From NCBI GenBank assembly GCA_028554795.2, contig CM068826.1, positions 103,861,602 to 103,925,601 of the forward strand: a stretch of 64,000 nt of DNA. The letters run 5' to 3'. A program made the position numbers and the translations under genes. This document shows, one piece after another, positions 14,900 to 57,424 of this stretch. This DNA comes from Sinohyriopsis cumingii. Taxonomy: Eukaryota; Mollusca; Bivalvia; Unionida; Unionidae. The first letter of the stretch is position 1. Each line of letters starts with the position of its first letter. The notes under the pieces were generated by a model. That model searched no databases and had not been told where the DNA came from. It saw only the letters and a list, made by a program, of their open reading frames with translations.

Positions 14900-15079
14900 A
14901 TGAATTTAAACAACTTCCACCTTTTTGATGAACAGAAGAAGAAATGTCTAAGTGCGGCGGATCTCAGTAGAAAAGGATCAGTTGATGCACACATTATTCA
15001 CCTTGTGCAGTTAATCAATGATCACCCTGATTTTTTCTCCACCAGCTCATGCTCTGGAAGGATAATACTGTTGGACAAT
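14900..15079 (+). CDS. TYW3: TYW3 exon 1
   Basis: The start at ATG 14900 gives 60 codons up to donor GTACAA. Contains the S-R-K-G-S-V-D and S-S-C-S-G-R-I signature. Confidence 0.9.
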
Positions 15080-18000
15080 GTACAACTAATTATATAAACG
15101 CTTTTGGAAGTTCACTTTTCCTCATCACATTATAGAAAGTTTTGGGGGTTCCCTTTTCCACGTCATATAATTTTTTAGGGGTTCCTTTTCCACGTCACAT
15201 TTCACCCATACACTTTTAATTTGCTGTCATTTAATCAGCCATTGATATGTAATGCAGTGTAAAGTAGATTTAATGTCAAATTTCTTATGTACCTTTCTCG
15301 GCGACCATCTGATGTGTTCACTGGTGGCAGCCAGTCAAATCAGAAAAAATAAACACAAAGAACAACTTAGTTCACTGCGACAAGTATCCCTATATTCTTC
15401 TCACAGAAAAATTACATTATTAGTACAGTCTGCATAAAAATGATTAATTTCTTAAACCACCTTCTTCAGCAAGATGCGGACATGATCATAATATCCATAT
15501 CTAGTGAACAGCTTGGTTAAAACTAATGAAATACATTTTGCTAATCATTTCTAGCTTCATTTAGAATCCTGCTGGATGAGTCTAAATTTGATAATGGGTG
15601 AATAAAGTAGAAAAGGCCCATTTGCTAAGCTGTGTCTAGTGAAAGTATCAGAAGTTCATTGAACAATATGCAATGGCTTGTATATACAAGCAGCAACTGA
15701 TTCATGCTTCTTAAAGCAGAAATGTATGATGATTAATTTTATTTAATAAATGTCCAGGTGACCTGGAAAAAAATGTGGATTACCATTTACCATTCACTCA
15801 GAATGGGAATGGGTGCAGTATATTTTACAAGGAGATGCTTAAGATTGTTGTTGTGGACTTTATGCCATTTTATAGCACAAGATAGGCTATACATGGCATC
15901 CAGTATAACTGGTAGATGAAGATCCAAGGAAAACCTAGGAAATAACCAACAACTCATTTCTTACCTACCCACATATGCAGAGCCAGAGACTCGAACTCAC
16001 ACCGACAGAGGTGAGATGGCAATGATAGGTAAAGGCTAGCACTTTTCACCACTTGGCTGCCATGGTCCCAAAAAGACTGGTTTTTAAAAATCATAATATT
16101 TGAAAGAAATGAATAATTTTCTTGCAGATTTTATCAATACTGTGCTTTGATATATCAAAAGTACAAAGAAGTGCAAGCCTCTAAGATTACTGGTGAAAAC
16201 TATAAATTCCATCTCATATGTAACGTTTACATCTTGATTAAACAACTGTGGTCTTTCTTTACTGGTTCAGTGTATACATATATCATGTATAAGCAGATTT
16301 TAAAATCTGCAATCGTGAAGAAGCAGTGGGTGATTAAAATGTTTTTTGTATGTGTACATATATTGATTCAGTCAGTTGGACAGCTGATTTGTGGTTCATA
16401 TATTCCAGCAATGTTACAAATAATTTTGTACCTGTTTACATTTTTTTAACGTTTATGTTCTGACTTAGCATTAGATATATTTTCTTTTCAAGATATTATT
16501 GTTTGAAAGCAAAATGTTAATGGATAGCTGATTAACTGCCTCAGGAGAACTTATCTTTTTGAAGGCAAATCTTAAACAGTCACATGATGAATAAACATTA
16601 TTTGTTGAAATAAATGTGTTACATACCAATGCCAAAAAGAACATGATAGCCTGATGCCCAGGACCCCTATAATTTCAGTTCGAGCCCCTCCTGTATTGTA
16701 CGTGAGGTTCCTGTTGGGTTTGTTGAAAATAGTTTTAATTTGACTGAACAAGCCTGGATCATGCTGATGAAATGCAATAAAACTATTTTCAAGTTGTTAA
16801 AAGACTGGTAAATTATTAATATTTGTCACATTGTATTACCTTGTGAGGATCATCTGTTTGTCAGGTACAAAGTGATACATGGGGAACCAACTGCCTGGGT
16901 TACTATAACTAGTGCTCATATGGCTTTGGCATACATGTGAATTGAAAATAGCATATTGGATATTTATGCACAGTAAAGAAACCAGTCTGGTGGGTAATGG
17001 AACTGTTCCAGCAATCATGGGAACCAATGTAATGATCCTTTGCCGTGTAATGGGAATAAATGGGAATAAAGCAAGCATGTAGACATGGTAAGCTGTTAAT
17101 TTATTACTTGTTGTAATCTGGATATTATGCCAAATGTGGGGTGTTTTATTGAAGTATTATTAGCAATAAAGGGATCAAATATGGTTATATTGGCTTTTGA
17201 GTCTTTGATTAAAAATTGGCTCTCCTTTGTTTGATCTAAGATAAAAAGGAAAGACTGACTAAAAATGATTTTGGCCCATCTGTTTTCTTCAAATGTGATA
17301 GTGGCTTGGTGAACTGTACGTTGTCAGCTTTCACAGTCGGCAGCTTATGATGCCCATTGGCGGTGGTCAAAGCCACAGGTGGTGAGGGTCTTTTTCAATG
17401 AGTCTTTATATCTCTTTCAAGGTGTCCCTCTATCACGGTGGCTAATGGACAGCTCACCATTGCCCTGCCCAGTGTAGCTGTATCTTTATGAGCATGGCCT
17501 CAATGCTGGTGATCCGTGCTTGTTTGAGGACTTCAGTGTTGGTGATGAAGTCACTACAATGGATGTGGAGGATGGTGCGGAGGCAGCACTGATGGAAGCG
17601 TTTAAGGAGGCGGAGGTGGCAGCTGTAGGTGACCCAAGATTTGGTGCCATATAGGAGGGTGGTCAGTATGACAGCTTTGTAGACGCTGATCTTAGTATCT
17701 TTCTTGAGACTGGTGTTGTTCCACACTTGTTTATAGAGTCTGCCAAAGGCACTGTTTGCCTTGGCCAATCTTTTGTCTATTTCTTTGTCGAATTTGGCAT
17801 CAGAGGAGATTACACAGTCCAAGTAGGTGAATTGGTGGACTGCTTTCAGCTATGTCTGGTCAATGAATATACTTGGTGGCTGGTACTCTTCCTTGGGAGC
17901 CGGCTGGTGAAGTACCTCAGTTTTCTTTAGTCTGACCTCAAGACCAAGGAGCTGGCACGCTTCTGCAAAGCAAGTTGTTACTCGCTGTAAGGCAGCTTTG

Positions 18001-41669: not shown

Positions 41670-41674
41670 AGCTT
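41670..41674. repeat. Target-site duplication, left (AGCTT)
   Basis: AGCTT directly before the left terminus, repeated at 57420-57424 after the right terminus. Five matching bases; Polintons usually show six. Confidence 0.7.
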
Positions 41675-41808
41675 AGCAGCAGGAAGAGCGAACAGACCAC
41701 TTGGTTGAAATATAATTTGCTTAAAACAAAACATCATATGAAAAAATAAGGTAATGTATGTACTTTGTTTACATATGTGAGGTCGCGCCCTTCCGGCTGC
41801 TATTAATT
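41675..41808 (+). repeat. Polinton left terminal inverted repeat
   Basis: 134 bp matching the reverse complement of 57287-57419 with about ten differences. Its own ends are inverted copies of one another (AGCAGCAGGAAGAGCG at the outside, CGCCCTTCCGGCTGCT at the inside). Confidence 0.93.
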
Positions 41809-41853
41809 TATCCAAAAATTTTATCAAGTCCGATTTGATATCTTGTTCTAGGA

Positions 41854-42396
41854 TCATGTAAGTTTATTGCTATAAATCCATGCAGAGTAGCTTGCGCTAA
41901 TGAAAAAAAAGTTTCTAAATTTATTTATATCCATGTCACCACCACACCAAGTTTGATGAATATTTCGCAACGTATGTGTATCAACTCCATTAAACACAAC
42001 TAAAATATTACAGTTGTCTCTGATCGCCTTTGGTATTTGTGTGTATCGCTGAGTAACATAAATCACATCAGTGTTTTTATGTCTACCTCGAGAAAATATT
42101 CTAGCAGGATTTGATTGTTTGTCCAGGATCACATCATCGTATACAACCAAATTATTAATAAATCCGTCTATGGAATCTACTGATGGTGCTTCATCAATAT
42201 CGGTTATAAACTCGATAACATCGTTATCTTTGTCCAATAATCTTGCGTTTTCATTAAAATCTTTAAGCACATCATAACATCGTTGATCATCTACAGACGG
42301 GGCTACCAAATACAACTTATCCCATTTTAGCCATCTCATTATAAGATTAAGTAACAACTGTGTCTTTCCACTTCCAGATGGTCCTATTATTATCAT
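41854..42396 (-). CDS. A32/FtsK-like genome-packaging ATPase
   Basis: HerA/FtsK-superfamily ATPase that in Polintons and related viruses pumps DNA into capsids. Walker A G-P-S-G-S-G-K-T is at residues 5-12, Walker B V-V-Y-D-D at 84-88, and the A32-type V-T-Q-R-Y at 114-118 followed by I-P-K-A-I-R-D-N-C-N. 180 residues, uninterrupted, so one of only two or three clearly intact genes of the element. The frame is open for nine more codons upstream of this ATG (to about 42423), with family-like residues but no start codon. The true N-terminus may therefore have been lost to a small indel. It ends 46 bases inside the left terminal repeat. Confidence 0.9.
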   Translation of the reverse strand: MIIIGPSGSGKTQLLLNLIMRWLKWDKLYLVAPSVDDQRCYDVLKDFNENARLLDKDNDVIEFITDIDEAPSVDSIDGFINNLVVYDDVILDKQSNPARIFSRGRHKNTDVIYVTQRYTQIPKAIRDNCNILVVFNGVDTHTLRNIHQTWCGGDMDINKFRNFFFISASYSAWIYSNKLT

Positions 42397-42487
42397 CCTA
42401 ATTGAGTTCGGTAACGCAGGATGGTGTTTGACAGTTTCTCATTTTCGAGTCACTGAGAAATCAATTATATCCATATTATATAAATAC
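42397..42487. promoter_or_regulatory. Divergent promoter region
   Basis: The ATPase (minus) and the zinc-ribbon/PLA2 gene (plus) are transcribed away from each other across this short gap. ATTATATAAATAC lies just before the plus-strand ATG at 42488. A TATA-like role is plausible but unproven. Confidence 0.35.
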
Positions 42488-43024
42488 ATGAATCTATATT
42501 GTTTACGTTGTAGAACTAAAACCCCAACTAATGATCTATCCATGGTTACAACAAAAAATGCAAGAATAGCATATGGTGGAAGATGTGCAGTATGTAATAG
42601 AAAAAAGTTTTCTTTTTCACCTAAAAATGATGGTGGTGATATTGCTAAATTAATGTCAAAGTTCCCAGGCACTCCCTGGGCTAAATACTCTGGAGAAAAT
42701 CATCTACCAAGATATAATTATTGCGGTCCTGGTACTCTACCAAGATATAATTATTGCGGTCCTGGTACTCGACTTGATATCAGGCTTGATAATCAGGATC
42801 AACCAAAACCAGGCGAGGAACCAATAAATGCTATTGATAAAGCATGTCATGTTCATGATGTAGCTTATAAAAGCAAACACCTACAAGATAGACATATTGC
42901 AGATGTGAAATTGATTCATTCATTAAATTCTATAAAAAATAAAAATATAAGAGAATCATTAGCTAATTGGTTAGTAAGATCCGCGATGAAAGGTAAATTA
43001 GCACTAGGGGCTGGTAATATATAA
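42488..43024 (+). CDS. Zinc-ribbon protein with parvovirus-type phospholipase A2 motif
   Basis: 178 residues, uninterrupted. The N-terminal four-Cys ribbon (Y-C-L-R-C at 4-8, C-A-V-C at 33-36) resembles small viral zinc-ribbon proteins of the DUF5679 type. The C-terminal half has a secreted-PLA2-like Ca-binding loop Y-C-G-P-G-T and the catalytic pattern D-x-A-x-x-x-H-D-x-x-Y (residues 117-127). This is the arrangement in parvovirus VP1 and in some other small DNA viruses, where it helps virions leave the endosome. The loop is present twice because of a perfect 33-bp tandem duplication (42704-42736, 42737-42769). The start is ATG 42488, 10 bases after an ATATAAA-like string. It is followed directly by the integrase gene (ATG 43025). 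The enzymatic role is inferred. Confidence 0.82.
   Translation: MNLYCLRCRTKTPTNDLSMVTTKNARIAYGGRCAVCNRKKFSFSPKNDGGDIAKLMSKFPGTPWAKYSGENHLPRYNYCGPGTLPRYNYCGPGTRLDIRLDNQDQPKPGEEPINAIDKACHVHDVAYKSKHLQDRHIADVKLIHSLNSIKNKNIRESLANWLVRSAMKGKLALGAGNI
42704..42769 (+). repeat. 33-bp in-frame tandem duplication in the PLA2 loop
   Basis: Two identical 33-bp units starting CTACCAAGATATAATTATTG, duplicating 11 codons around Y-C-G-P-G-T. Confidence 0.95.
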
Positions 43025-44028
43025 ATGGAATCGATTTATTATTCCCCAATTGGATACTGGAGGGGTAAAGCAGCAATTAGTAAACTCGCTGATGCAGCAA
43101 AAGTCAAGTACTCTACAGCCGCAAAATGGTTATCCAAACAGGCAATATGGTAAATTTACCTACCGCCACCTAAGCAAATTCGATTTGCACATTTTGATGT
43201 TAGTGTTCCTAATGAAGTTCATCAGACTGATATATTATTTTTTACCACATGATACCGTTAAAATTGGTTGACGTCAAATAACATACAAATACGCGCTAAC
43301 TGTTGTTGATGTTGCAAGTAGATACAAAGATGCAGAACCATTATCAACTAAAACATCATCTGAAGTAGCCAATGCTTTTAAACGAATTTATCAACGAGGT
43401 GGTCTACGATGGCCACAATTATTACAGGTTGATCCTGGCAAGGAATTTCTTGGTCCAGTATCATCGTTGATGAAGTAACATAATGTCAAAATACGATGAG
43501 GACATACTGCAATTCATCGTGATCAGGCAATTGTTGAACGATTTAATCAAACACTTTGAGCGGTTATTTGGATATCAATACGCAAAGGAATTTATTCAGG
43601 ATACGAGATCTCGTGAATGGGTGGCAAGATTACCAAATGTGATAACTGCATTAAATAATGTAATTACTCGAACAACCAACATGAAACCCATTAATGCAAT
43701 TACAAAAGCACATATACCTACACAACGACATGATTTTTCAACACAACCAGTATTAGGTAATACTACTGTAAGATATTTATATGAACCTGGTGAACTTGAA
43801 GGTGGTAAAAAAAGAGCAACTGATCCTATTTGGAGTATTACGACGCACATGATATCTAGCCTAACAAGATCCACTGGTAGACCCGCAATCTACAGATTGG
43901 ATTCAACTGCTCCTCAACGTGGATTTGTACGTGAACAATTACAAATAATTCCCGAGGACACTCAATTACCACCCAAATCACTTAACTGTCACCAAGGGTG
44001 CCAGCACCCTGACGTCGATTACACTTAA
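43025..44028 (+). pseudogene. Polinton integrase (retrovirus-like, rve/DDE), interrupted
   Basis: Integrase that would cut and join the element's ends. The start ATG 43025 begins one base after the previous stop. The core domain shows the three acidic residues: H-Q-T-D (about 43229), Q-V-D-P-G-K-E-F (about 43431) and V-E-R-F-N-Q-T (about 43536). Also visible are the Y-A-L-T-V-V-D-V-A-S-R-Y strand, a downstream N-N-V-I-T-R-T-T-N-M-K-P segment, and a C-terminal V-R-Y-L-Y-E-P-G chromo/SH3-like region. Breaks: TAG near 43150, a frameshift near 43235, TGA near 43269, TAA near 43477, TGA near 43498 and a frameshift near 43556. The last 47 bases overlap the convergent polymerase-fusion gene. Clearly inactive. 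Confidence 0.9.
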
Positions 44029-47000
44029 GACAGGTCAACATAGTATTTTCTCGTGTATGACCAAGACTTATTTTTTCTATCTACAGTAAATTGTCTTGGA
44101 TCATTTTTCAGATACCGCCATAACATTATACAATTACAACAAGCACAAAGATTATTTTGTTGCTGTTTCAGCGCATTAATAAATTCAACGTCAAGATCAA
44201 ATTCTCAATTATTTTTTTTGACACTTTGTTTATAACCAGCCAATCTTTTTCTTATTATATCATTATCGAGGTCATCATTGATCACTGACGAGTCCATGAT
44301 GATTCTCCGCAGTTGAGATATTTTTCTAACTCGAGACACTGCAAGATAAATTAAGTTTGACCATTCGATACGATCATCAATGATCCAAACAACTGTATCG
44401 GTAATAGTTAATCCTTGAGATGAATGAATCGTCATCGCATATCCAAGCGTCTATGGGGATTTATCAGCACGTAGAGCATCCTCAACAACATCAACATCAA
44501 CTGCAATAATATCATTCAATACAAGATTCTGTTTCCCCTGTCCTGGTATATCAACATCAATATTTTGCCGTTGCGTATCTGCTGGTCGATAACTTAATGG
44601 AACTGGCAACGTTGGAAACTTTTCTCATTGTAACTGAAACAACTCCTGTTGAAGTGTATCACGAACTGTCTTCCTACTTGCTACTATCAAATTGTTTGGT
44701 CTCCACGTTTGTAGAAAGTCGTTCATGGGTGTTTCTGAAATTACCTCGCGCATAATTTCACACTGAATTTTATTTGGTTGTAGTCTGATTAATTTTTTTA
44801 ATTCCTTTAATTCTGCATCAAGTGCTCTATGATCATCATTTATTTCTTTGTAATAATCAACAAAATTTCTCAGCCAATCATGTGGAGATGCTCCATCTAT
44901 AGGTGGTGGTTGACCGTGATCGCTGCACATTATCACAGCAGTATTTCTTGTTAATAACCAATCGAGAAATGTTTTTAATACTTCCAACGACACAGTACAT
45001 ATTTCATCCCAAACGATAATCCTCGGAATATATTTTTCTCCCATTCAATCAGGAGTCCATGTATCATCTTTGTACCTAAAAAAGCTGTTATAAGTACATG
45101 ATTGTACTCATTGTTTCATTTCTCGCGCGAGTCTGTGTGTAGGTGTTAGCACAATCATATCTGAATTCTGAAATAGTTCAATCGCTCGAGTGGTTTTACC
45201 AGAACCGCCAGGTCCATTTAGATAAACCTTTTTATTAATAGTTATTGGATCGTATACTGATAGTGCAGATGATAGCTTTAATGTTTGATTATTTTTGCCT
45301 GATTTTATCAGGTAAATATCTTTAACCGCAACATCAGCGGATTCGGAATAATTAAGTATATTTTCTTTTTTTTATTCTCCATGAACCCCACGATGCACAA
45401 GTGTCTATATTTAATTTTTCTAACAGTCCTGAATATTTTTTATTGATATAAAACGAATCCATAGTGACTCTGACAGCAAACTCAGAAACCTTATTTATCA
45501 TCGATAATAGATTTATCGAAACGTACGCTAACATTGATGATCTTAAATGAGTATATTGAGGTGACTCACTGTCCATATAGCTCACAATTGTACCTAGTTT
45601 ATTTCCATTTGGCAAGAAAGCTATTTCTCGACTTATAAATGTGTTTCTATTTGTTGTATCGGCGATTATAAAATCTAACTCAGCATCGTCCATGATCAGT
45701 CTTGTACAGTGTCGTTTATGATCATATGATCCTCCTTGGGTGAACTTGCCAATTATTTTTCTGCCAAGATCTTTTGCGATTTTATTCTTGTAATCAGTTT
45801 TATTGTGGTTTTCATAATCGGAATATTCTTTTTGTTGTGGTAACCAAACTTCAGTTTGTTTCCAGTATGATATAATTGCTTCACTGATCGTCAGCGATAT
45901 TAATATCGCACAATCAAGCATATATCATAATAGTACTATTGGTGCCCACATTTTTTCTGGAAAATGCCTACCAAACCAAACATAACAAATCATATGGAGA
46001 TCTTTAGCAAACTCGAATGATTCGACACAAGCAAATCCAGTCAAGTCAAAATCCTGTTATGGTCCATTTATCGATACTCGCACCATTTCATGTGTTGGAT
46101 GACCGAATCTCTTGAAGTATACAGAACAATCTCTGTATCCGAGAAAACTTCCCAGATAACATGCAACCATATCAACTGAAATAACATCTTTATGATCGTA
46201 TTTAGTATTCCATAGTCCGCCGTGTCTGTATTCGACACAACTCGATATTATATCATTGAGAAAATCAAATCTAGTTGGTTTCCACGAATTTTTCTTTCTA
46301 GCAAAATGAGCCGCAACTGACGGAACAGTAAAACAGTTGCTCAATAGTTCATCAGTATCATGAGTATATTGCAGCGCAAGATTTTTCATTTTCTCGTGGA
46401 GAAGATCTGTTTGATAAATAACACCATTCGGTCTTACAAACTGATCAAATTTACTTTTTTCTTCCACATCTGATTCGTCGTTTTCAGAACTTTCAAACAA
46501 CCATACTGACACAGGATCCTTTTTACTTATTTCGTTAATAAAATCAAACATATCTCCGCAGTAAAATTTAACAGTTCGATTTCATGGAAACACTGTTACT
46601 GCGCTAGTCCATGCGTGTGCGTTATGATCAATAATTTTAATCGAAGCTCCTTTTGATTTATATTTTGATTCATATAATATTTCTCCTGTTATTGTCGCTA
46701 CGGTTATTTGGAATTTTAATTTTTTCCTAACTCAGCAACATCCTTGATAGACGCTCCGGTATCTTTAACCATTTCTCCCCACTCATTTATTATTTTATGT
46801 CCTTTATCTGTTAAACCGCTTCCACGAGTCGAAACGGTAAAATGTTCTGTTACTCGTTTGGCTACACAGTTTATTTTTGAAAATTTCATTGGCTTCAGAT
46901 TATCAACGCTAGGTTTTTCATTTATCGGATAGATTCCATAAATAACTGCTGTTACAGTGTATGCTCGTTCATAATACGGTTTGTCAATACCAGTCAATAG

Positions 47001-47412
47001 ACCTGGTTTGGAATCTTTACTTAGTACGACAGTTTTTTTTATTAGCATGAACAGGATCATATTTGTCATGAATAATCCAATCATCTGTTTCTGTTAGCAC
47101 GACAAATTTTATTCTGAAAAGATATTTGCGATTATCAAGGTATTTAATGATAGTTGCTGCTTGTTTGTCGTTCATCGTAGCGTCGATGATATCTTTGTTA
47201 CGTATAATCTTGAACGTTGACCGGACATGAGATGCGCCATCTGCATGAAATTCTTTCTTGGCATCGTGAATTTTATTAATCAAACTTTTATTTTTTGGAT
47301 CAACCAGGTCTCGCATCGGTAGGTCAGGATATATTCTGTCGAGATTAAATTTATCTGCTTTCCAAGGCTTGATTCGGGATAATCTATCGAATTCGTTCAT
47401 ATTATATTTCAA
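43982..47412 (-). pseudogene. Fusion: family B DNA polymerase - SF1 helicase - HNH domain, interrupted
   Basis: One continuous coding unit of about 1,140 codons once single-base breaks are allowed for. The N-terminal region (47412-46570) holds an N-C-V-A-K-R-V-T-E-H-F block. Polymerase motif A, S-V-D-M-V-A-C-Y, lies at about 46156-46179; a motif-B-like T-H-L-R-S-S-M-L-A-Y and a motif C, T-M-D-S-F-Y, lie at about 45448-45468. An A8 run near 45367 carries the indel that separates polymerase and helicase. The helicase has G-P-G-G-S-G-K-T (45192-45215), I-V-W-D-E (about 45010), a C-S-D-H-G-Q-P-P-P motif III and Y-L-A-V-S-R-V-R-K motif VI (44322-44348). After one in-frame TGA (44205) the frame goes on into C-A-C-C-N-C (44131-44148), F-T-V-D-R and, after a last shift, L-T-C-L-K-C-N-R-R, a Cys-rich HNH-like fold. 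The polymerase type (protein-primed) is inferred from element context. Confidence 0.82.
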
Positions 47413-47444
47413 ACAAGTATATAAATTAAAATATTATATATACA
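47413..47444. promoter_or_regulatory. Divergent start region, TATA-like
   Basis: Only 32 bases separate the polymerase-fusion ATG (minus) from the Cys-rich gene ATG (plus). They contain TATATAAATTAAAATATTAT. A shared AT-rich promoter is likely but not shown. Confidence 0.3.
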
Positions 47445-47603
47445 ATGTCTCGATGCAGATGGCTGATGATCGGTTCATTGACCTCTTGGAATAAATCTTG
47501 TAAAAAGGAATTCTGCGGACAACACTTGCAGAGTGTTCATAGAGGTTGTTTAGGACCGATACCATGTCTGTGATGTGGTGTTGGAGTATGAGAAAAAACT
47601 TAA
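47445..47603 (+). pseudogene. Small Cys-rich (zinc-finger-like) protein, interrupted
   Basis: A 52-codon frame with two in-frame TGA codons (47571-47573, 47589-47591). Cys/His spacing C-R-W, K-S-C, F-C-G-Q-H, R-G-C, P-C-L-[stop]-C-G suggests a small zinc-binding protein. Function unknown. The two TGAs fit C-to-T decay elsewhere in the element. No confident family match. Confidence 0.45.
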
Positions 47604-47708
47604 AAGATACTATGATAAAAAAAAATAATAGTAACAACGCTATAAAATCCGTGGAGGATTATCTAAGTTTTCAGACAAATTATGATTTAAACAAATAATA
47701 TTATTATA

Positions 47709-48190
47709 ATGAACACAGAATTTGTGAAGCATCCTATAATAACAAACTACGAATCAAATCGTGACGGTGTGATTAGAAATTGCAGGTTGAAAAACCAGTT
47801 GGTTTTGTTATTAATACTTATTATCTAATGTTTACTATTGGTAAGAAAAATCATCTCTGTCATCGTTTCACATACGACTGTTTCTTCGGAGTGATCAAAG
47901 ATGGCCTTGTGATCGATCATATCGACGTTATAAAAACCCATAATTATTTATCCAACCTTCAGGCTATTACACAGAGCGAGAACTCCACATGAGGAGGGAC
48001 TGGTAAGTTCATAAAGATTCCTAGAGCGATTAAATCCTTTAATGTAGAGACTGGAGAAGAGAGAATTTTTCAATCAATGTGTTCTGCTGCGAAATATTTT
48101 GATATCAACCAGCGTGCGGTAAAATACGTCGCAGAAAATATAACCAAATCCGCCTTCTCAAAAAAATATAAACAAAGAATCATCTTCTAA
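47709..48190 (+). pseudogene. HNH endonuclease with NUMOD-like tail, interrupted
   Basis: Stand-alone endonuclease of the type found free or in introns of phages and large DNA viruses. From ATG 47709 there is an N-terminal strand-rich part. A frameshift at about 47780 leads to H-R-F-T-Y-D, V-I-D-H-I-D and S-N-L-Q-A-I-T, which follow the HNH_3 pattern. An in-frame TGA (47990-47992) is followed by a segment E-T-G-E-E-R-I-F-Q-S-M-C-S-A-A-K-Y-F resembling a NUMOD1 DNA-binding helix-turn-helix. It ends at TAA 48188-48190. One nonsense codon and one indel make it inactive. It could have been a genome-specific homing-type enzyme. Confidence 0.75.
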
Positions 48191-48499
48191 TATCAATAAT
48201 GGAGATAAATTATCATCTTTAGCAAGTAATTACCTCGAATTCTATTTATTAACTATTTATTTCAATTTTGGGTCCGTATTTTACCCATATACTACTGATT
48301 TTTTCGACTTGAGCGAAGGGAGATAATTCTGTAAACATATATTTCTCCGTAGATTATGATTTTTATGGTCGTAATTAGTTAATTAACCATCTACGTCGTA
48401 ATTAATATCAATAATATAACAAGCAGAAGGATATTTATGGTTTCTAACTTACAAAATAGAAAAATAAACGTGGTTACATAGTACAATATAGCAAGTTAT

Positions 48500-48835
48500 T
48501 TTTAGATCTGTTCAGAAACCGCTGTTTTAGTGTTTTAGTGCAGATATGTTACGATCTATTCATAAACCGTTGTTTTAATGCAGAAATATTTTACAATCTA
48601 TTCAGAAACCGCTGTTTAAGTGCAGATATTTTACGATTTACTCAGAAACCGCTGTTTTAATGCAGAAATATTTTACAATCTATTGAGAAACCGCTGTTTT
48701 AGTGCAGATATTTTACGATTTATTGAGAAACCGCTGTTTTAATGCAGAAATATTTTACAATCTATTCAGAAACCGCTGTTTTAATACAGAAATATATATA
48801 ACTTACAATCTATTCAGAAACCGTAACTGTATAAA
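48500..48835. repeat. 42/40-bp alternating tandem repeat
   Basis: About eight copies built on CAGAAACCGCTGTTTTAATG with alternating CAGAAATATTTTACAATCTA and CAGATATTTTACGATTTA second halves, i.e. an 82-bp dimer unit. Confidence 0.88.
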
Positions 48836-48857
48836 TATTTCTGAAACGTATGTATAT

Positions 48858-48935
48858 CAGATGCTTTCGTAGCTCATTGCGAACGCGTCGAACTATGAAA
48901 CTCGAGGTCTGGTGATCGAGTCCCATGACTGACAA
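48858..48935 (+). other. tRNA-like fragment
   Basis: GTAGCTCATTGCGAACGCG resembles a box A / D-arm and GGTGATCGAGTCCC resembles a box B / T-arm at tRNA-like spacing. I cannot pair an acceptor stem, so a functional tRNA is doubtful. Confidence 0.25.
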
Positions 48936-49189
48936 CTGTCGGTGGTTACGCTTATTTGCTATTTTTATCATTAATTGGGGGCTCCGCTTAAAGCCTCGAA
49001 ATTCAACAGAAAAAAAACCACCTCTCACCACGTCACCAGTGGTGGATACATGTTTTGTATCACCCACGAGCTGATTATTGGGTGTGTGTGTGTGCGTCAA
49101 AATCTGTTTAGTGTAGAGAGGCCTGTTTATGTTGTGCTGTCCTTACTATAAATATGTAAATAATATGTGTTGTGCCGTCCTTAATTAAG

Positions 49190-49550
49190 ATTTATATGTT
49201 GTGTTATCCTCTAAACTTGCTAGAATGCGGTGGCAATCTAGGAGTTTACATGGGGATTATATGTTGTGTTGTCCTTATGTGTGTCCTCTAAACTTGCTAG
49301 AATGCGGGGGCAATCTAGGAGTTTACATGGGGATTGTGTCGTCATTCACAAAACACGCCCTCTTGAACCTGCTAGACCGCTGTTTGACGGGTTAGGGGTT
49401 CTCATAGGGGGTTGTGTTTCGTGTGCCCTCTAAACTTGCTAGAATTCGGTGGTAATCTAGGAGTTTATATGAGGGTTGTGTTGTCCTTATGTGTGTTCTC
49501 TAAACTTGCTAGAATGCGGTGGCAATCTAGGAGTTTACATTGGGATTTTT
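49190..49550. repeat. About 65-75-bp tandem repeat, 5 copies
   Basis: Units contain CCTCTAAACTTGCTAGAATG and GGCAATCTAGGAGTTTACAT. One copy (about 49340-49410) is strongly diverged. Confidence 0.85.
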
Positions 49551-49597
49551 TTTATTGCTGAGGAAACCATATTCAGATTGTTAAAAATTTATTTTAA

Positions 49598-49684
<87 letters not shown>
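49598..49684. repeat. (TA)n microsatellite inside the Polinton
   Basis: About 85 bp of pure TA, ending just before the small gene at 49692. Confidence 0.95.
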
Positions 49685-49685
<1 letters not shown>

Positions 49686-49691
49686 TAAATA

Positions 49692-49855
49692 ATGAACCAT
49701 GAAATTATCAATGATGTAATTGTTGCTATTAAAAAATTAGAAAAAGACATTTTAATATATCTGATGAACTGAATCCTGAAAAGATTATTTCTGATTTTGA
49801 ATTTTTAGAAGAATTGATGGTGGTTTTACACTTGTGTCGGAATACAAGTTTATAA
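49692..49855 (+). pseudogene. Small hypothetical protein, frameshifted
   Basis: ATG 49692 opens an acidic/hydrophobic frame that, after one single-base loss near 49754, continues to TAA 49853-49855 (about 54 residues). The stop is immediately followed by the ATG of the next small gene (TATAAAATGA), a tightly packed arrangement that supports both being real. No family recognised. Confidence 0.45.
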
Positions 49856-49856
49856 A

Positions 49857-50093
49857 ATGAATTCAGGTGGCGATGTTCCAGTCACTGGCTGCAGTAAAAG
49901 ATGATCAGGTCAAGGAATTCGTCCCTCTGTCTCTGCCGTAGTAGAAAAAATTAGATTGGGGTTATCTCTTGAATACGAGGTAAGGAAAACGATTAATGCT
50001 CGTGTAAGACAATTAAGAAAAATTATGTTAGATCGTGGAACGATCCAAAGTAACTTCGCTATTGATGAAACGACCGAGCATGAGCACGTGTAA
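49857..50093 (+). pseudogene. Small hypothetical protein with one nonsense codon
   Basis: 78-residue frame from ATG 49857 to TAA 50091-50093, with an in-frame TGA at 49902-49904. The second half is basic and helical (V-R-K-T-I-N-A-R-V-R-Q-L-R-K-I), suggesting nucleic-acid binding, followed by an acidic tail. Last plus-strand gene before the convergent inverted repeat. No family recognised. Confidence 0.5.
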
Positions 50094-50099
50094 TATTTT

Positions 50100-50738
50100 A
50101 TTATTATTCTGAATATTTAATTTTTATTCTGAAATATTTTATTTTTCTCAAATATTTTTATTATTCTGAAATATTTTATTTATTCTCAAATAATTTTATT
50201 CTTCTGAATATTTTATTTTTCTGAAAATATTTTTTCCCCATAAAATCTGATCGATTTGTATAACTTTCACTACCTAAATACCCATCTTAATTAACAAACT
50301 GATCGATTTGTATAATTTTGAGTACCAACCACCTCATCAGAATTACAAAATTGATCGATTTGTATAATTTTGAGTATCAACCACCCCATCAATTTCAGAA
50401 TTAAAAAAATATTTCAGAATAATAATATTTTTTTGTATTATTTTTTGCAAAACTGGTCGATTTACATGTTTTTGACTACCTAACTACATATCAGAATTAA
50501 CAAACTGATCGATTTACATGATTTTGAGTATCAACCACCCCATCAATTTCAGAATAAAATAAAATATTTCTGATAAAAATAAAATATTTCAGAATAAATA
50601 AAATATTTCATAATAATAAAATATTTCAGAATAAATAAAATATTTCTGATAAAATAAAATATTTCTGATAAAATATTTCAGAATAAATAAAATATTTCAG
50701 AACAAATAAAATATTTCTGATCAAAGATCATTACGATA
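50100..50738. repeat. AT-rich inverted repeat at convergent gene ends, with internal 52-bp tandem repeat
   Basis: The left arm (about 50100-50235) repeats TTATTCTGAAATATTTTATT. The right arm (about 50540-50725) repeats its complement AATAAAATATTTCAGAATAA. Between them are about five 52-bp copies carrying CTGATCGATTTGTATAATTT. Left-arm genes end at 50093 and right-arm genes at 50745, so this structure sits exactly where transcription from both sides meets. Confidence 0.8.
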
Positions 50739-50744
50739 AAAGTC

Positions 50745-51242
50745 TTACGACTTTACATACAGATTCACAATTAATTCCTCTCCCCTTAGGTCAGTTAAGC
50801 GTCCGAGGTGGTCAGTGAACTTAAAATTTATTCGTGTTAACATATTAGTATGACACAGCAGATAAACAGGATTAGTTGGTTCTTGCATGATTAAACTTCC
50901 AGGGGGAACTTGTGGTGTGAACGTATATAATATATATCCTTGTTGAGCCTGACTTGATTTTCCAAGATCTATTTGATAACTGCCATCGATCACATCACAA
51001 ACTAGATTAACCGCGATTGTTAAGGTTATATTAACGATTCCCGGAGCTACATGTCTAGCGCCTCCGTATGGATCATTATTGTATATAAGAACAGATGCTG
51101 GTGGTAATGTTTCTTTGTACCGTGTAAGTATATCAGTAAAGTTTTCATCGATGATTTTGGTAGTGGATTTTTTTAGTTCGTCTGCGTTATACCCGGAAAT
51201 TTAAAATTTACCAGTGTAGCTTCTGTCAACGAATACGCGTTT
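50745..51242 (-). pseudogene. Structural-type protein (penton/minor-capsid-like C-terminus), one nonsense codon
   Basis: About 165 codons ending L-I-V-N-L-Y-V-K-S at 50745. The last 60 residues (P-G-S-L, N-P-V-Y-L-L, F-T-D-H-L-G-R, D-L-R-G-E-E-L-I-V-N-L) follow a pattern I associate with structural proteins of Polinton and adintovirus type, possibly the minor capsid. An in-frame TAA lies near 51200, and no ATG is visible at the expected start. Assignment to a capsid role is tentative. Confidence 0.5.
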
Positions 51243-51250
51243 AAAAAATG

Positions 51251-51770
51251 TTATTTAGACCTAAATTGATCGTCGTCAACATGATTAATTATTGCCCGAA
51301 TTAATCGCTGGTTAACATATTCCATATCGGACGCGAGCTGATTTAGTATTTCAATGTGTTTTATGATTTCGCTGCGTAAAGTTGTATCAAAAATACGTTC
51401 TTGGAAACTTTGCCGTAGCAGCTGTAGATGTATTAATATGTTCTTTATTTTTTTCTTTAAAGTATTCAATAATTTGACTTAAGTAAACATCAATTTTTCT
51501 TTTTCCTCTTTCTTCTCTTTCTCTTCCAGGAACTAACTCGATAGAAAAATTCCACTGAATAGTATTCTTGTTGAAAAATAAAAGTTCGATGTCCACCGTT
51601 GCATTTTTTATATCAAGTAAATGTTGTTTGTATGATGGGGTAATTTCGTGGTATGATTGCTTATCCGTGACATAATCAGACTTTTTTGGTTCTAGTAAAG
51701 GTGGTGGTATCGGTGGTGGGATTTTAGGCCATCCTAAGACATTTCTGATCGAACTCTGATAAATCTGTTA
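51251..51770 (-). pseudogene. Hypothetical protein, Pro-rich start and helical end, frameshifted
   Basis: From about 51763 a frame with P-P-P-I-P-P-P-L-L-E-P runs through a charged stretch R-E-R-E-E-R-G-K-R-K. After a shift near 51430 it continues as a helical segment (Q-L-L-R-Q-S-F-Q-E-R ... R-L-I-R-A-I-I-N-H-V) to TAA 51251-51253. No start codon in frame. Function unknown. It lies between the two structural-type genes on either side, same strand. Confidence 0.4.
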
Positions 51771-52125
51771 TTGTTATTTTTTATTCTTTCCCGGTGATAT
51801 TCTTTATTCTGCGCTGAAATTCATCGTTGATTTGCTCAATCTGATAACTACCAGTTGGTATTCCAACAACGTTCCGGTCAGGTGTTCCATCCGGTTTGTT
51901 TTTATTAGCAAATACAAGCGAATTATTTGCTGGTGTACCATTAAATGATTTCGATCTGATATTTGGCCAACTATTATATACACGTAATTGTGCTAGTGCA
52001 ATTTCTTTGACTGGAATTGCAGTTGGAAAATTGATGCTAAATTCAGGATTAGTCAAACTTACTGAGATCATCGTGGTCTTGTGTGGGGTTGTGTTTGTCA
52101 CGATCTGCTGGAGTAATTCCGTCAT
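51724..52125 (-). pseudogene. Structural-type protein N-terminal segment, one nonsense codon
   Basis: ATG 52125 opens a frame with S-V-S-L-T-N-P-E-F-S, A-L-A-Q-L-R-V-Y-N-S-W and G-S-Y-Q-I-E-Q-I-N-D, then a TAA at 51781-51783. Beyond it the same frame stays open for 18 codons to TAA 51724. The beta-strand pattern followed by 'Y-Q-I-x-x-I-N' resembles the start of a Polinton-type capsid or penton protein whose end may be represented by 50745-51242. Inference only. Confidence 0.45.
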
Positions 52126-52601
52126 TATTAATATTCGTACCTTTAATACCAGCGCAGTTGTATATTTTAATCATCTCTGAAAACTCGAAATCAGATATAA
52201 TTCCATCACTGAGACTCGCTGATAACAACGAAGATAACTTCTAATATGCAACCGTCGCCGTATGTATTTTATCATGTAATCGGATAATTTTCATTCGTGC
52301 TAGTACATATTTTTTGGCAATAATATTAAGAACACCTGCAATCGTTGTTGTAGCTGAAATACAGATTGTCACAGGTACTGTTGCCATCATTGTCATTGTT
52401 GATAATATCACACCGGTTCCAGCAACAACAGCGGATACTGAATAAACAATCACGTCGACGATAACCAGTCGTCGTCGATATTTTTATTTTTACTGTATAT
52501 TGTTCGACGATATCTTTTAATTTTACTTGCCATTCACGTGCTTGATTGTACCTGTAATGTTGCGATGCAACATCATTTTGAACGTCGACTGGGGTATTCA
52601 T
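52049..52601 (-). pseudogene. Two-helix membrane protein, frameshift and nonsense
   Basis: The ATG 52601 segment is polar (Y-R-Y-N-Q-A-R-E-W). After a shift near 52490 it enters R-R-R-L-V-I-V-D-V-I and two hydrophobic helices rich in Val/Ala/Thr (about 52300-52450), then a basic loop A-K-K-Y-V-L-A-R-M-K. A TAG at 52241-52243 is followed in frame by S-D-G-I-I-S-D-F-E-F, a helical acidic end. The gene then either stops or overlaps the next gene's start. It resembles the small two-helix membrane proteins seen in Polintons. Role unknown. Confidence 0.5.
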
Positions 52602-52608
52602 TATTATT

Positions 52609-53613
52609 TTATGCAGTATGTAATTGAGGTGTTTCAGTTACAAATTCCAGACACCACCAGTAAGATGTTGAGGTTAATGTCTTATCAGCTGCTTCCAGCA
52701 TAAATTCTTCTTCGGTTCCTTTATTTAAAACAACAGACACAACCCCTGAAAACTTATCAGTTGAATGACACCATGGATACGTTGTAAAATATTTCAAATT
52801 TTGCAGCACTGAACACAGACAGCCTGTACACGCCAGTGACTGTTACGGTATATTTGATAGTTTTATTTTGCTGCGACCATGTTGCGAACCCAGATGATAC
52901 CATGTACACGATGTTGGTAATATGCCCGGGAGTTACTCCGGGTGGAATTTTAATCAAACTGGTTTTATTAACGATCTCAGGAATCCCCGCTACGATGTCT
53001 TCTTGTGTTTTTTTAATCGTATCTAACGTTTTTTTTATATCAGATAGTTTTGCGTCAACGGTCAACGGATTACCAAAAAATTCATCTGCGGTTTCCTTAA
53101 GTTTTCTAAAATTTTTACGGAAATTTGTAAACGCGTTTACGTGAACGTCATACTCGGCCCGCAACGTGGATAATTTACCATCTACGGTGTTGTAGTTGGT
53201 GTCAACATAATTTTTTGTTGCGGCATCTTCGTCTGATGTTGTATCTCTTAAAACCACTATTTTATTCCCGTTCATGCTCCCGTCATTGTGTCACCGGTAT
53301 TTTTCACGCGATTAGCAACGCTTCTTGCAATTTCATCTCTGATAGTTGTAAACGATACACTTGAATCCCTGATTTTTCCGCTGTCAGTAAACACAGGGAT
53401 ATTATCCGTGACCGCACCGAGTACTCGTCGAACTATATCATTCCGCCTGATATTGCTAGTTTTTAGTTTACCATATCGATCCTGAAAAATAACAACCTCA
53501 TCTGGGTCAACTCCAGCAAGTTTCATAATATCAGCGAGTTCATCTTTATGATACCCAATGAGTACCGGGTCCTGAATTCGAGTCGAGATCAATAATGCCT
53601 GTTTCGAATTCAT
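52609..53613 (-). pseudogene. Tail-fibre-like virion protein, frameshifted
   Basis: The proposed start is ATG 53613, inside the protease reading frame. N-terminal half: F-Q-D-R-Y-G-K-L-K and V-F-T-D-S-G-K-I-R. Then T-G-D-T-M-T-G-A, and after a short indel at about 53272, M-N-G-N-K-I ... D-A-A-T-K-N-Y-V-D. This hinge sequence is typical of phage tail fibres and of fibre-like proteins in adenovirus-related elements. A helical stretch follows (about 52950-53150), then beta-rich Y-T-V-T-V-T-G-V-Y-R-L-S and, after another shift near 52800, a C-terminal domain ending at 52609. A receptor-binding spike is the likely role, by analogy. At least two frameshifts. Confidence 0.65.
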
Positions 53614-53707
53614 TCGGTTGTTTCGGTAATTGATCTCCCATAAAAACACCTCTGAAGTTTTTTATTTTTATTTGTTTAGCAGCATCAAGTAAATCAAAAT
53701 TTGACAT
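53546..53707 (-). pseudogene. Adenain-type cysteine protease, N-terminal half only
   Basis: Adenovirus-like maturation protease. From ATG 53707: N-F-D-L-L-D-A-A-K, I-K-N-F-R-G-V-F-M, G-I-I-D-L-D and G-P-G-T-H-W-V, the last holding the catalytic His. The frame ends in TAA at 53546 after 53 residues. The second half of the family (acidic/Asn residue, Gln and nucleophile Cys) is not present in any frame downstream; instead the fibre gene runs through. Family members are about 200 residues long. A deletion or recombination joining protease and fibre genes is the simplest reading. Confidence 0.8.
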
Positions 53708-53718
53708 CGGTGTGAAGT

Positions 53719-54198
53719 TTAGATTCCTGGAATCCTCAGACCTTTTCCTAGATAGGTTCCTGGTAATCTTAGGCCTCTCCCCAGGTAAGTTCCTGGTAAT
53801 CTTAGACCAGATCCCTTTTTTATATCCTTTTCCTGTTGCTTTCTTTAGAGCCATTCCAGCAGCTGTTCCAACAGCACCTAACGCGGTTGCTTTTGCGACA
53901 GCTGGAGCGGCAGCAGCTATTAATGCTGGTATTGCTGCAAGAAGTGGAAAATACCACCTGTTTTAACCATATCTTTAATGGCGCTCGGAGAAAGAACAAG
54001 TTGAACTCCAGTTTTTGATTTCAGTGCTTTATTGAAGTGTTTAATTTGATTCTTGGTTAGTGACAGTTTATTTGAACCACCACTAGAAATCTGATCTTGT
54101 TTCAACGTTATTTTTGTTCCGCAGTTTTTTGTTGAATTTGATTGACGTTTTTTCACCTGACCGGGAGTCAGAGTGACATTAACATGACTGTATGCCAT
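53719..54198 (-). pseudogene. Core/minor virion protein, two frameshifts
   Basis: From ATG 54198: V-N-V-T-L-T-P-G-Q, then a basic Lys-rich segment with L-T-K-N-Q-I-K. A shift near 53960 gives an Ala-rich hydrophobic helix (P-L-L-A-A-I-P-A-L-I-A-A-A-A). A shift in an A6 run near 53818 gives repeated G-L-R-L-P-G-T-Y-L-G units ending at TAA 53719. The layout (basic, hydrophobic, Gly-repeat) matches the core or pVI-like proteins next to the capsid gene in Polintons. Probably DNA- or membrane-interacting inside the virion. Confidence 0.6.
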
Positions 54199-54233
54199 TT
54201 TATGATAAATACTTGTCACGCTCCAAATAATGA

Positions 54234-55553
54234 TCATAGATTTTCCACTGGTGCATCAACGACTCTCATTCGACCGCTACCACCCTCAAGTAACATTGCT
54301 TTGTCACTAAGTATAACCGCAATTGCTCTGTAATCAACACCACCACCTGTATTCACGCTGGCTTTAAAGTGTATATCAACGAGAGATTGCTTCGATAAAT
54401 CAAGATGCTCCAGCGAAGAATAATAAATCGGATACAAAGTTCTAAAATCATGTTGTGATATTTGCAAACCGGTATCCACATTTTGATCACGTCCCATGAA
54501 TGTCATCAAACGATGATATACACGTGCTATATGATTTTGTTCATAATTTAGTATTATATTTTCCGTTGGTTCTTGTTGTCCATTTATCCGCAAAGAAACC
54601 TCGGTGACATTTAGTTGGTCAAATATCATATGAAAGCGAGTTTGCGAGTTTAATCGATTATGATTTTGCAGCGCAATAAAAATATGTCGCGGTGCAGAAA
54701 CACCTTGCTGTGATACTATATGCCATGCAAACTGACCGTTAGTATTACTTTGTGCACTATCTGTAGTTGTTGTTAACCACGACAACAGAGACTTACCACC
54801 TGTATCCATGAAAGAAAGCAATATTTATTCTTCTGCGATCATTGAAGTCATTACTGGCATCCACAACGATAGTTCTTTTAGTATTACTTTACCAGTATCA
54901 CCAATAGGTCTCCAGAGAGCATCGTTATCATTACCTTTTCTCACAAGAACAACCGTGTGTCTAGCTCCAAAGATAACTTTTCTAACATTTCTACAAAATC
55001 CGAAGATGTGTGATAATGGAATAGCACACGAAAAATGTCTCCTCCCTGTATTCAACATTGATCGGCGTGTTGCAAATCCCAAGTTGAAATTTGGGTTAGA
55101 AGCATGATATTATAATGATCGCTTTCAGGGTGATCAGAATTATCTTTAACAAACATCATCGTGGGACCTGCTGATCTTGTATAATCGTCAGAGTATCTTG
55201 CCAACCCTATTATTGTTGTAGCAACGTCGACATCTTTCTGAATCGATTCAATCTTTTTTCCATCAATCATATATACGGCGCTATCAAATAGTGCCATAAT
55301 ACCATTGTTGACAAAACCAACCTTTACTGCATATGCGTATTCAGCATCATCCGTTTTTATAATTTCACCTTCTACCTCAATAAAAGCCTCAGCGGGTAGA
55401 AAATATATACTTGTATCATGAACTTGAAGTTCGATACGCCCCTGTTGATTTGGTTGTTTTGCATCATAGGAATAACTGATAATCACGTGCTGATTCATCC
55501 TTACGGACAGGTGCTTCCATATCAAATGCTTCGTCGGATACGCGCTTGAACAT
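54234..55553 (-). pseudogene. Major capsid protein (double jelly roll), frameshifted
   Basis: About 440 codons from ATG 55553, in three or four frames. Recognisable blocks: Y-F-L-P-A-E-A-F-I-E-V-E-G, D-S-A-V-Y-M-I-D-G, I-I-G-L-A-R-Y-S, I-P-L-S-H-I-F-G-F, N-D-N-D-A-L-W-R, L-S-L-W-M-P, Q-N-H-N-R-L-N and L-Y-P-I-Y-Y-S-S-L. These follow the capsid protein of Polintons and adintoviruses. Shifts near 55480, 55090 and 54830 make it non-functional. Flanked by the small basic virion gene (upstream) and the core gene (downstream), the usual neighbourhood. Confidence 0.85.
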
Positions 55554-55585
55554 TTTATTATAATTATTTTCGCTTAACACGAGAA

Positions 55586-56029
55586 TCATCGTGTTTGGGA
55601 GATTCCACTCCCTGATATTAAACTTGAAATATTATTCCTTGGTTCACCTAGCCCTTGATCTGCTAGTGCTGCTGGTCTCTGATTTGCAGCTTGATTTATT
55701 ATTTTACTGACATCTGCGGGCATAATTTCAGTACTTGGTAATTTTACTGGTTGTGATTTTCGTCTTATTAATCGTGCTAGTCTATCTTTGATCGCCGAGA
55801 ACGCCTTACCAGCAACATTGACAATGGCACCAGGAGTTTTTTCACGAACAATATCAATAGCCTTCATCGATAATTGTTTTGCAATAGGCGCTGCTTTTGG
55901 GGCCATCCTTGTAAATAATCCCCGTACAACATCACCAAGTCCATCTCCGTAAAATACCTCGTAGACTGGTAATCGTGAGTTTACTACTCTGACAGGTACA
56001 GATTTACGATGATTATTGTGTACAATCAC
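55586..56029 (-). CDS. Small basic virion protein (adenovirus core pX/pVI-like)
   Basis: 147-residue open frame without breaks. It begins with GTG at 56029, and no ATG is in place, so the start codon may be mutated. Features: V-F-Y-G-D-G-L-G-D-V-V-R-G-L-F, a G-x-G-like site followed by an amphipathic hydrophobic stretch, then a basic helix R-L-A-R-L-I-R-R-K and a Gly/Ser-rich end. This resembles the short membrane-active or core precursor proteins encoded just before the capsid gene in Polintons and adenoviruses. Function by analogy only. Confidence 0.6.
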   Translation of the reverse strand: MIVHNNHRKSVPVRVVNSRLPVYEVFYGDGLGDVVRGLFTRMAPKAAPIAKQLSMKAIDIVREKTPGAIVNVAGKAFSAIKDRLARLIRRKSQPVKLPSTEIMPADVSKIINQAANQRPAALADQGLGEPRNNISSLISGSGISQTR

Positions 56030-56056
56030 TTATTTTAATTACCATTTATCTAACAA

Positions 56057-57264
56057 CTAGTCACTGTAATCATCAACGAGTTCATCGATAAGTTCTCGGT
56101 AAACACTGATATCCATAATACCACCTTGGAATAATCGTTGACAAATATCAGCTGCTTCATTGGTTATTTCTGGTGAGTTATTTCCGGCACGTTTTCCTCC
56201 TATGAGAACTTCTAACCGTGACACGTCATTGATGATATTATCAGGAAAAACAAAATTACTTTCCAAACCACTACCAGTAGCACCAGGTGTATCATCTCCT
56301 GGAGATTGTGGTCGAGCAGTTTGGTGCTGTAGAGGAGGTTGTTGTGTTTGCGAAGGTGGAGGAAGTTGATATGAAGGTTTTTGCTTTTGTAGCCCACTTT
56401 TCAGTTCCTCCTTACTTTTTTTGTATTAATTTACTTATTTCTTGTGTTATTTCCTCCTCTTCTTGTGCCATTTTTCCTCTTTTTTTTAATTTTTTCCAAC
56501 TTTTCTTTTTCTTTTCTTTTCGTTCAAGTTTTTCTTTTCGTTCAAGTTTTTCTTGTAATAATACTCCTTCATTAAAAACGTCATAAAAACTACCTTTAGT
56601 TATCCGGTTTATACCCCTGTTTATTTTATACACCCAGTCAAACCATGTTTTACGATTAGTACTTTTAACATATTCAGGTTTTAAATAATTATATCTGTGT
56701 AGAAAACTTGAAGCAGCAAACACACCAAGATCAATTATATCATCACAAGTATTTAATTCAAATTTTTTTCTTATTGCCTGTATACCATTATTAGTAAATT
56801 TTTCTGTAAAAGTAATATCCTTTTTATGTTCTTCTTCATCCACAGGGTCAGTAACAGTAGGTGGAGGTTGAGGTGGAGGATGAGCTGTAGCTATATCAGT
56901 TGGAAGATTTCGTAAAATTCCTTTTATTTTTTTTAATTCTTCTTGCTATTTTTTCAGTTCTTCCTGCTATTTTTTCAGTTTGTTCTGATGCTTGTTTTAA
57001 CACTGGAAAAATACCCTTTTTCCTCTCCTCATCCTCCTCCTTAATATCTTCCCGATATAGTTTTTTTCAGCAGCCGCTGCAGCTTTTTCAGTAACTGTAG
57101 TGACGGGTTTAAATAGTTTTTTAGTGTCTTCTTCGTACTCAACTTGTGCTTCCTGCTGCGCTCGTAAGTTTTTTCCGAATGAATCTCTAACAGGAAGAAA
57201 ATTTTTTGATTGATTCTAATCGTTCTCGAGCTAGCCTTGCAGTATGAGATTCCGGATGTACCAT
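56057..57264 (-). pseudogene. Long Pro-rich coiled-coil protein, several frameshifts
   Basis: About 400 codons from ATG 57264, immediately inside the right terminal repeat, to stop 56057. In order: H-P-E-S-H-T-A-R-L-A-R-E-R (shift), Q-Q-E-A-Q-V-E-Y-E-E-D and an Ala-rich helix (shift), a Lys-rich stretch, P-P-P-Q-P-P-P, then an open block (56412-56843) with W-F-D-W-V and a long K/E coiled coil. After a shift in an A7 run near 56423 it continues with a Gln/Pro-rich linker and a C-terminal helical domain with K-R-A-G-N-N-S-P-E-I. Probably a virion scaffold or internal protein; the last domain recurs, as I recall, in Polintons. No enzymatic motif. Confidence 0.55.
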
Positions 57265-57286
57265 TATTTATTACAATAATTTTTTT

Positions 57287-57419
57287 AATTAATAGCAGCA
57301 GGAAGGGCGCGACCTCATATATGTAAACAAAGTACATACATTACCATTTTTTTCGTATGATGTTTTGTTTTAAGCAAATTATATTTCAACCAAGTGGTAT
57401 GTTCGCCCTTTCTGCTGCT
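57287..57419 (-). repeat. Polinton right terminal inverted repeat
   Basis: Reverse complement of 41675-41808. Its two ends are inverted copies (AGCAGCAGGAAGGGCG inside, CGCCCTTTCTGCTGCT outside), a better match than in the left copy. Confidence 0.93.
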
Positions 57420-57424
57420 AGCTT
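57420..57424. repeat. Target-site duplication, right (AGCTT)
   Basis: Matches 41670-41674. Confidence 0.7.

Follow-up and report, generated by a model that had tools for sequence, protein, structure and literature searches.

A decayed replicase gene joining polymerase, helicase and HNH-like parts in a Polinton-type element, probably of the Tlr1-like kind

When polymerase, helicase and nuclease-like sequences follow one another across frame changes and stop codons, are they three neighbouring genes or the remains of one? The question is raised by a decayed Polinton-type element in a 64,000-nucleotide stretch of contig CM068826.1 (assembly GCA_028554795.2), called the window here, where a sequence-only reading had proposed that the minus strand from 43982 to 47412 is one coding unit read through its breaks. 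We conclude, with a probability of roughly 0.82, that this is a decayed Tlr1-type replicase gene of a Polinton-like element, which would comprise a terminal-protein (TP)-like domain, an OTU-type protease, a protein-primed family B polymerase palm, a superfamily 1 (SF1) helicase and an HNH-like tail. Its parts in the window are as follows.

43982–47400, minus strand: fused replicase gene in decay, running from a TP/OTU-like N-terminal part through palm and SF1 helicase to an HNH-like tail, from tblastn and motifs, with four frame changes and eight in-frame stops
46200–47400 (approximate limits), minus strand: N-terminal region, TP-like, then OTU-like with a conserved Cys and His, then a stretch before motif A, from a 50-relative alignment and the P0050 model
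45375–46200 (approximate limits), minus strand: protein-primed type B polymerase palm, motifs A to C, first motif C Asp absent
44250–45371, minus strand: SF1 (Pif1/RecD-like) helicase
43985–44204, minus strand: C-terminal HNH-like domain, CxxC...CxxC, collinear with P0002 to residue 1172 and with the Cys pattern also in relatives

Tblastn with the intact protein P0002 (1,176 amino acids, aa) covered 47391–44000 of the minus strand with five collinear segments (residues 3–123, 121–225, 223–706, 706–1156 and 1150–1172), which bears out the proposed single coding unit; against the reversed window, used as a control, the best E was only 1.6. The border breaks lie where the sequence-only reading had placed them, as the polymerase/helicase border at ~45370 is a frame change in a T8 run (A8 on the minus strand) and the helicase/HNH border is a TGA at ~44207. 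That reading was right about the polymerase, helicase and HNH parts but had left the N-terminal part, from 47400 to ~46200, unassigned, and this also belongs to the gene. A further frame change lies within the HNH tail at ~44060. Runs of six to eight T coincide with or adjoin three of the four frame changes, and all but one of the eight in-frame stops inside the segments (six TGA, one TAA and one TAG in total) lie away from the helicase/HNH border. The window copy of the gene is dead. Its open stretches still hold motif A, the motif C-like VTMDSFY, the Walker A motif GPGGSGKT, WDE, DHGQPPP and HSSQG/SRV. Pfam scores for ten window pieces were weak (the helicase C-terminal piece matched UvrD_C_2 at 1.5e-4, below the Pfam cut-off), with no match to DNA_pol_B or any other polymerase family among the ten, and PHROGs returned only helicase-type families at E < 1e-3 for the six replicase pieces searched.

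If the three parts belong to one gene, a single intact open reading frame (ORF) of about 1,100 residues with the same order should exist, as the sequence-only reading had itself proposed as a test. We queried 5.8 billion proteins with an uninterrupted 174-residue piece around motif A, taking the length of the whole region to set that of the candidates, and obtained three proteins (1,058, 1,176 and 1,168 aa) with E of 1e-57 or better. P0001 ends before the HNH-like tail, while P0002 and P0003 (1,168 aa) carry polymerase, helicase and HNH-like tail in one frame and in the order of the window. We then searched the 2.90-Gb assembly of the same genome, in which the window lies at C3:103861602–103925601, with P0002 and scored the best 39 of 38,191 first-look candidates, which were thus selected for good match. 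All 39 are 85% identical to P0002, and 38 of them are a single stop-free open frame of 1,181 residues, the other having a TAG. A replicase ORF of 1,174 aa is likewise present in 20 of 20 fetched same-genome loci. A stand-alone protein-primed polymerase (pPolB) gene, as expected of a Polinton, was found nowhere in this material, the polymerase being fused in the window, in all 39 scored rows and in all 20 fetched loci. In L009, the one young copy examined for its ORFs, the replicase is flanked by a 178-aa ORF divergent from it and by a 329-aa integrase ORF that converges on it. Because the same-genome copies carry one uninterrupted frame, the fusion is the natural state of the replicase gene, and the claim of one gene rather than three is upheld, since relatives and same-genome copies read through both borders. 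The sequence-only reading had also placed similar fused proteins in glomeromycete fungi. The fungal host is rejected on the four of 53 relative proteins with a named organism, which come from the sea slugs Elysia crispata (three) and E. marginata (one), though fungi may be among the other 49. Searches for related loci confirmed no relatives in viral contigs (IMG/VR; palm piece, ATPase and 50-protein alignment) or in genome contigs (that alignment), and Pfam DNA_pol_B had no match in the ten relatives scanned.

The order TP-like, OTU-like, phi29-type palm, Pif1/RecD-type helicase and HNH-like tail is assigned from models and conserved residues. In the 50-relative alignment and the P0050 model, TP-like and OTU-like parts precede the palm, the OTU-like part with its conserved Cys and His; the phi29 match in the P0050 model begins at chain residue 55, and an exonuclease remnant between OTU and palm is possible. 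The palm is of the protein-primed kind and is followed by the SF1 helicase in the same polypeptide in the window, in P0002 and P0003 and in the same-genome copies. Motif A retains its Asp in 47 of 47 relatives and a motif B-like stretch is conserved across the alignment, while the first Asp of motif C is replaced, with Ala in all 49 relatives that have a letter at this position.

The C-terminal region aligns in 45 of the 50 relatives and is absent in five. The full CxxC...CxxC[N/G] pattern occurs in 43/50, and the four cysteines, like the residues D, H and N, are retained in 44–45 of 50, the remainder being gaps apart from single substitutions. Among the 29 members with all regions (21 partial ones were dropped) the mean identity of this region is 0.68, which makes it as conserved as the helicase, and its distances track those of the palm (r = 0.74, with none of 2000 permutations as high); a sporadic homing invader is therefore disfavoured. 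In ten relatives, Pfam found HNH in three and Endonuclease_7 in one, all below the cut-off, and no nuclease match in the other six. A structure search in which neither the HNH nor the TP domain was a separate query gave no HNH fold among the matches listed, which is no evidence of absence. By its sequence pattern 'HNH-like' is the right term for the tail, and nuclease activity is putative.

How does this layout compare with known systems? Passages of PMC11071308 describe Tlr1-like helicases (pPolB-S1H, S1H being the SF1 helicase) of polinton-like viruses (PLVs) and transpovirons as having a domain in the TP position, a vOTU, a palm and S1H, with the first motif C Asp missing; depending on the PLV, the C-terminus carries GIY-YIG or HNH. 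Shared with the window gene are the palm–S1H order, probably preceded here too by TP and vOTU domains, the missing Asp and the C-terminal HNH option, and Tlr1 also carries an RVE integrase; in contrast, the hosts named in those passages are protists and giant viruses, whereas the host here is probably an animal. Judged by order, residues and tail, the window gene would work like a Tlr1-like helicase and probably is one. The polymerase–helicase fusion is thus no new kind of protein, and while the sequence-only reading was correct that the fusion exists, its novelty falls away, as Tlr1-like helicases already have it (PMC11071308, in the passages cited).

With animal Polintons/Mavericks the element has in common the RVE integrase, packaging ATPase, double jelly-roll (DJR) capsid, terminal inverted repeats (TIRs) and a size of ~16 kb, but their polymerase stands alone and here it is fused. 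Classical Polintons make 6-bp target duplications, whereas those of this family are 5 bp in eight of eight pairs. Part of PMC7805220 reports duplications of 5–7 bp for three elements of a set from oomycetes and a fungus. An excerpt of PMC12721341 describes OmPLV of the dinoflagellate Oxyrrhis marina, which likewise has an SF1 helicase and pPolB in one large protein and mostly broken copies; its helicase is N-terminal (SF1–pPolB), it retains an exonuclease, and the excerpt mentions no HNH tail. An OmPLV-type architecture is rejected, as the palm precedes the helicase here and the order is reversed. According to sections of PMC12220804, Cryptomonas PLVs encode similarly large proteins with an SF1 helicase and a C-terminal homing-type nuclease, which is GIY-YIG instead of HNH, and in Rhodomonas PLVs the HNH is N-terminal to the helicase. 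Searches of open-licence papers turned up no description of this animal family among the results listed. What is new here is a probable animal host for a Tlr1-type replicase, the four named relatives being from sea slugs, together with a recent burst of probably hundreds of copies with 5-bp target duplications.

This burst is seen in copies younger than that of the window. Nineteen of 20 fetched young loci differ by 0.08% on average and by 0.17% at most over 6.5 kb. The twentieth, L017, is ~1.5% different over the same length; nearly all of its differences lie outside the replicase gene, as would follow from exchange of an adjoining stretch, and within the gene a single difference separates it from L009. 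Because these two compared ORFs differ at one site, dN/dS among young copies is uninformative. With the terminal 201 bases as query there were 1,068 first-look candidates, of which the 40 scored are all 100% identical and lie on C1 and part of C2 only; by extrapolation there are probably several hundred young elements, if most of these candidates are real. Sixteen of the 20 end loci fetched form eight pairs, four having no partner among the fetched rows, and the eight paired copies (e.g. L039/L040 to L056/L057) are 16,125–16,217 bp long, each with a perfect 5-bp target duplication. Three of three further young copies, whose printed flanks were compared by eye, also have 5-bp duplications, and all six young right ends fetched share the terminal CTGCTGCT and then run into unrelated flanks. 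The family of the window element has been amplified recently in this genome.

The window copy, only 66–73% identical to L009 in DNA over three matching stretches, thus belongs to an older subfamily; for a 491-bp stretch of it, 39 other copies are 93–95% identical (40 scored of 4,647 candidates, the window included). Between the window and the L009 gene the proportion of nonsynonymous differences (pN, 0.16–0.31) is well under that of synonymous differences (pS, 0.63–0.88) in all eight open replicase pieces, with pN 0.196 versus pS 0.855 in the HNH piece; dS is saturated in five pieces and dN/dS is 0.13–0.18 in the other three. These comparisons indicate that the lineage was under purifying selection along the whole replicase length before the window copy decayed.

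The rest of the element is laid out as follows.

41675–57419, no strand: Polinton-type element over its full 15,745 bp, a decayed member of an older subfamily, with TIRs and termini AGCAGCAG...CTGCTGCT
41675–41823, plus strand: left terminal inverted repeat, 143/157 alignment columns (91%) identical to the right arm
57272–57419, minus strand: right terminal inverted repeat, from the TIR alignment
41670–41674, no strand: putative 5-bp target duplication AGCTT, left, matching AGCTT at the right flank
57420–57424, no strand: putative 5-bp target duplication AGCTT, right, matching AGCTT at the left flank
43025–44028, plus strand: pieces of a broken RVE integrase gene, converging on the replicase (Pfam rve 8.1e-6 on 43272–43478, below the Pfam cut-off)
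42500–43024, plus strand: DUF5679 and phospholipase A2-like domain (PF08398 8e-14, PF18930 8.9e-11)
41854–42438, minus strand: A32-like packaging ATPase (Pox_A32 1.3e-12)
47709–48190, plus strand: broken HNH_3/NUMOD1 endonuclease gene, separate from the replicase and divergent to it (HNH_3 4.2e-8, NUMOD1 6.3e-4)
54237–55109, minus strand: PF21738 matches (5e-8 on 54234–54821; 3.7e-9 on 54828–55109)

The element therefore has the RVE integrase, packaging ATPase, DJR capsid pieces and TIRs of a Polinton/Maverick; no Pfam match to an adenovirus-type protease or a penton was found among the element pieces scanned. Its integrase and capsid genes are broken as well, and the ATPase piece is open over 194 codons. 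In L009 the integrase is one 329-aa ORF at the place of the window's integrase pieces and with similar first residues, and the 178-aa ORF has the place of the HNH_3/NUMOD1 gene and a similar N-terminus. With this gene and the replicase tail the window element holds two HNH-type domains. The integrase and replicase frame ends overlap convergently in the window (44028–43982) but not in L009 (5025 versus 5050). Weak matches to phage tail or tail-fibre families at 52760–53290 on the minus strand (best PHROG 1640, E 1.3e-5) perhaps mark a receptor-binding fibre. The CpG observed/expected ratio is 0.49 outside the element and 1.04 inside, as if the host's depleted level had not yet been reached. Together with the 2.9-Gb assembly and the sea-slug origin of the four named relatives, the CpG-depleted background makes an animal, perhaps a mollusc, the likeliest host. 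Elsewhere in the window, a TYW3 methyltransferase match (14750–15094, plus strand, E 1.3e-15) is probably a host gene exon, and a LINE reverse-transcriptase-like fragment was seen by eye at 17457–17849 on the minus strand, with no Pfam match at E 0.01.

Could the fused gene be an appearance created by decay? Three separate neighbouring genes would fit the frame change at one border and the TGA at the other in the window; however, 38 of the 39 scored same-genome copies, as well as P0002 and P0003, read both borders in one frame, and we reject this explanation as hardly credible. It is also very improbable that the frame changes and stops of the window are functional, as programmed frameshifts or stop readthrough. 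The T runs at or near three of the four frame changes would suit such a mechanism, but the same 38 copies are stop-free in frame and the window copy's integrase and capsid genes are broken too, and with intact frames in both scored and fetched same-genome copies this candidate is rejected.

A 2016 paper, going by its title, is said to treat a protein of this type as only a helicase, and one of the two motif C aspartates is indeed missing family-wide. An inactive palm is nevertheless unlikely, given the invariant motif A Asp, the conserved motif B-like stretch and the lack of any polymerase family match among the other element pieces scanned; active polymerases without the same Asp are moreover noted in passages of PMC11071308. 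Slightly more doubtful still is an independent origin, in which a classical animal Polinton polymerase gained an SF1 helicase and an HNH of its own, as happened in the opposite order in OmPLV (PMC12721341, in excerpt). In the cited part of PMC11071308 Tlr1-like helicases do have protist hosts, unlike the probable animal host here, and kinship with Tlr1 was judged by architecture and residues, not from a tree. Yet domain order, loss of the first motif C Asp and the HNH option are all as in Tlr1-like helicases, and the best viral structure match is H6WBE3 (999 aa; 1,147 columns, E 8e-26), although its TM-scores are as low as 0.21 and 0.23. Less easily dismissed, if still somewhat unlikely, is a reading in which the HNH tail does not belong to the replicase and is an intein remnant or a selfish homing endonuclease. 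Intein invasion has been proposed for such C-terminal nuclease domains (PMC11071308, same passages), a separate HNH_3/NUMOD1 gene adjoins the replicase, and five of 50 relatives lack the region; on the other hand, the tail holds the same position in the other 45, shows helicase-like conservation and diverges with the palm in the 29 full-length members, and its differences between window and young copy are mostly synonymous.

If the gene is a Tlr1-type replicase, as we prefer to read it, its N-terminal domain would provide the priming hydroxyl for synthesis at the TIR ends, and the OTU domain would cut this domain off the large chain. The palm would copy the linear element, with the duplex in front of it unwound by the helicase of the same chain, after which the RVE integrase would insert a linear copy at a new place in the host DNA. 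The HNH-like tail would be an integral part of the enzyme, not a passing homing endonuclease, and might nick or trim replication intermediates. More tentatively, and with the odds somewhat against it, the family may represent an undescribed and very recently active animal, perhaps molluscan, Polinton clade in which a Tlr1-type protein is the sole replicase, the HNH serves as a functional nuclease in replication, and one genome has gained hundreds of intact, near-identical copies through an integrase leaving duplications of 5 bp.

Fused replicases of the Tlr1-like kind are known from transpovirons and elements of protists, and the polymerase activity of these proteins is predicted. If a probable animal genome carries such a family in many copies, with frames intact and insertions fresh, the host range of this replicase would be wider than described so far, and a single natural enzyme would be available for measuring priming, self-cleavage, synthesis, unwinding and what the HNH tail does. 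It also bears on whether Polintons and polinton-like viruses are truly distinct groups.

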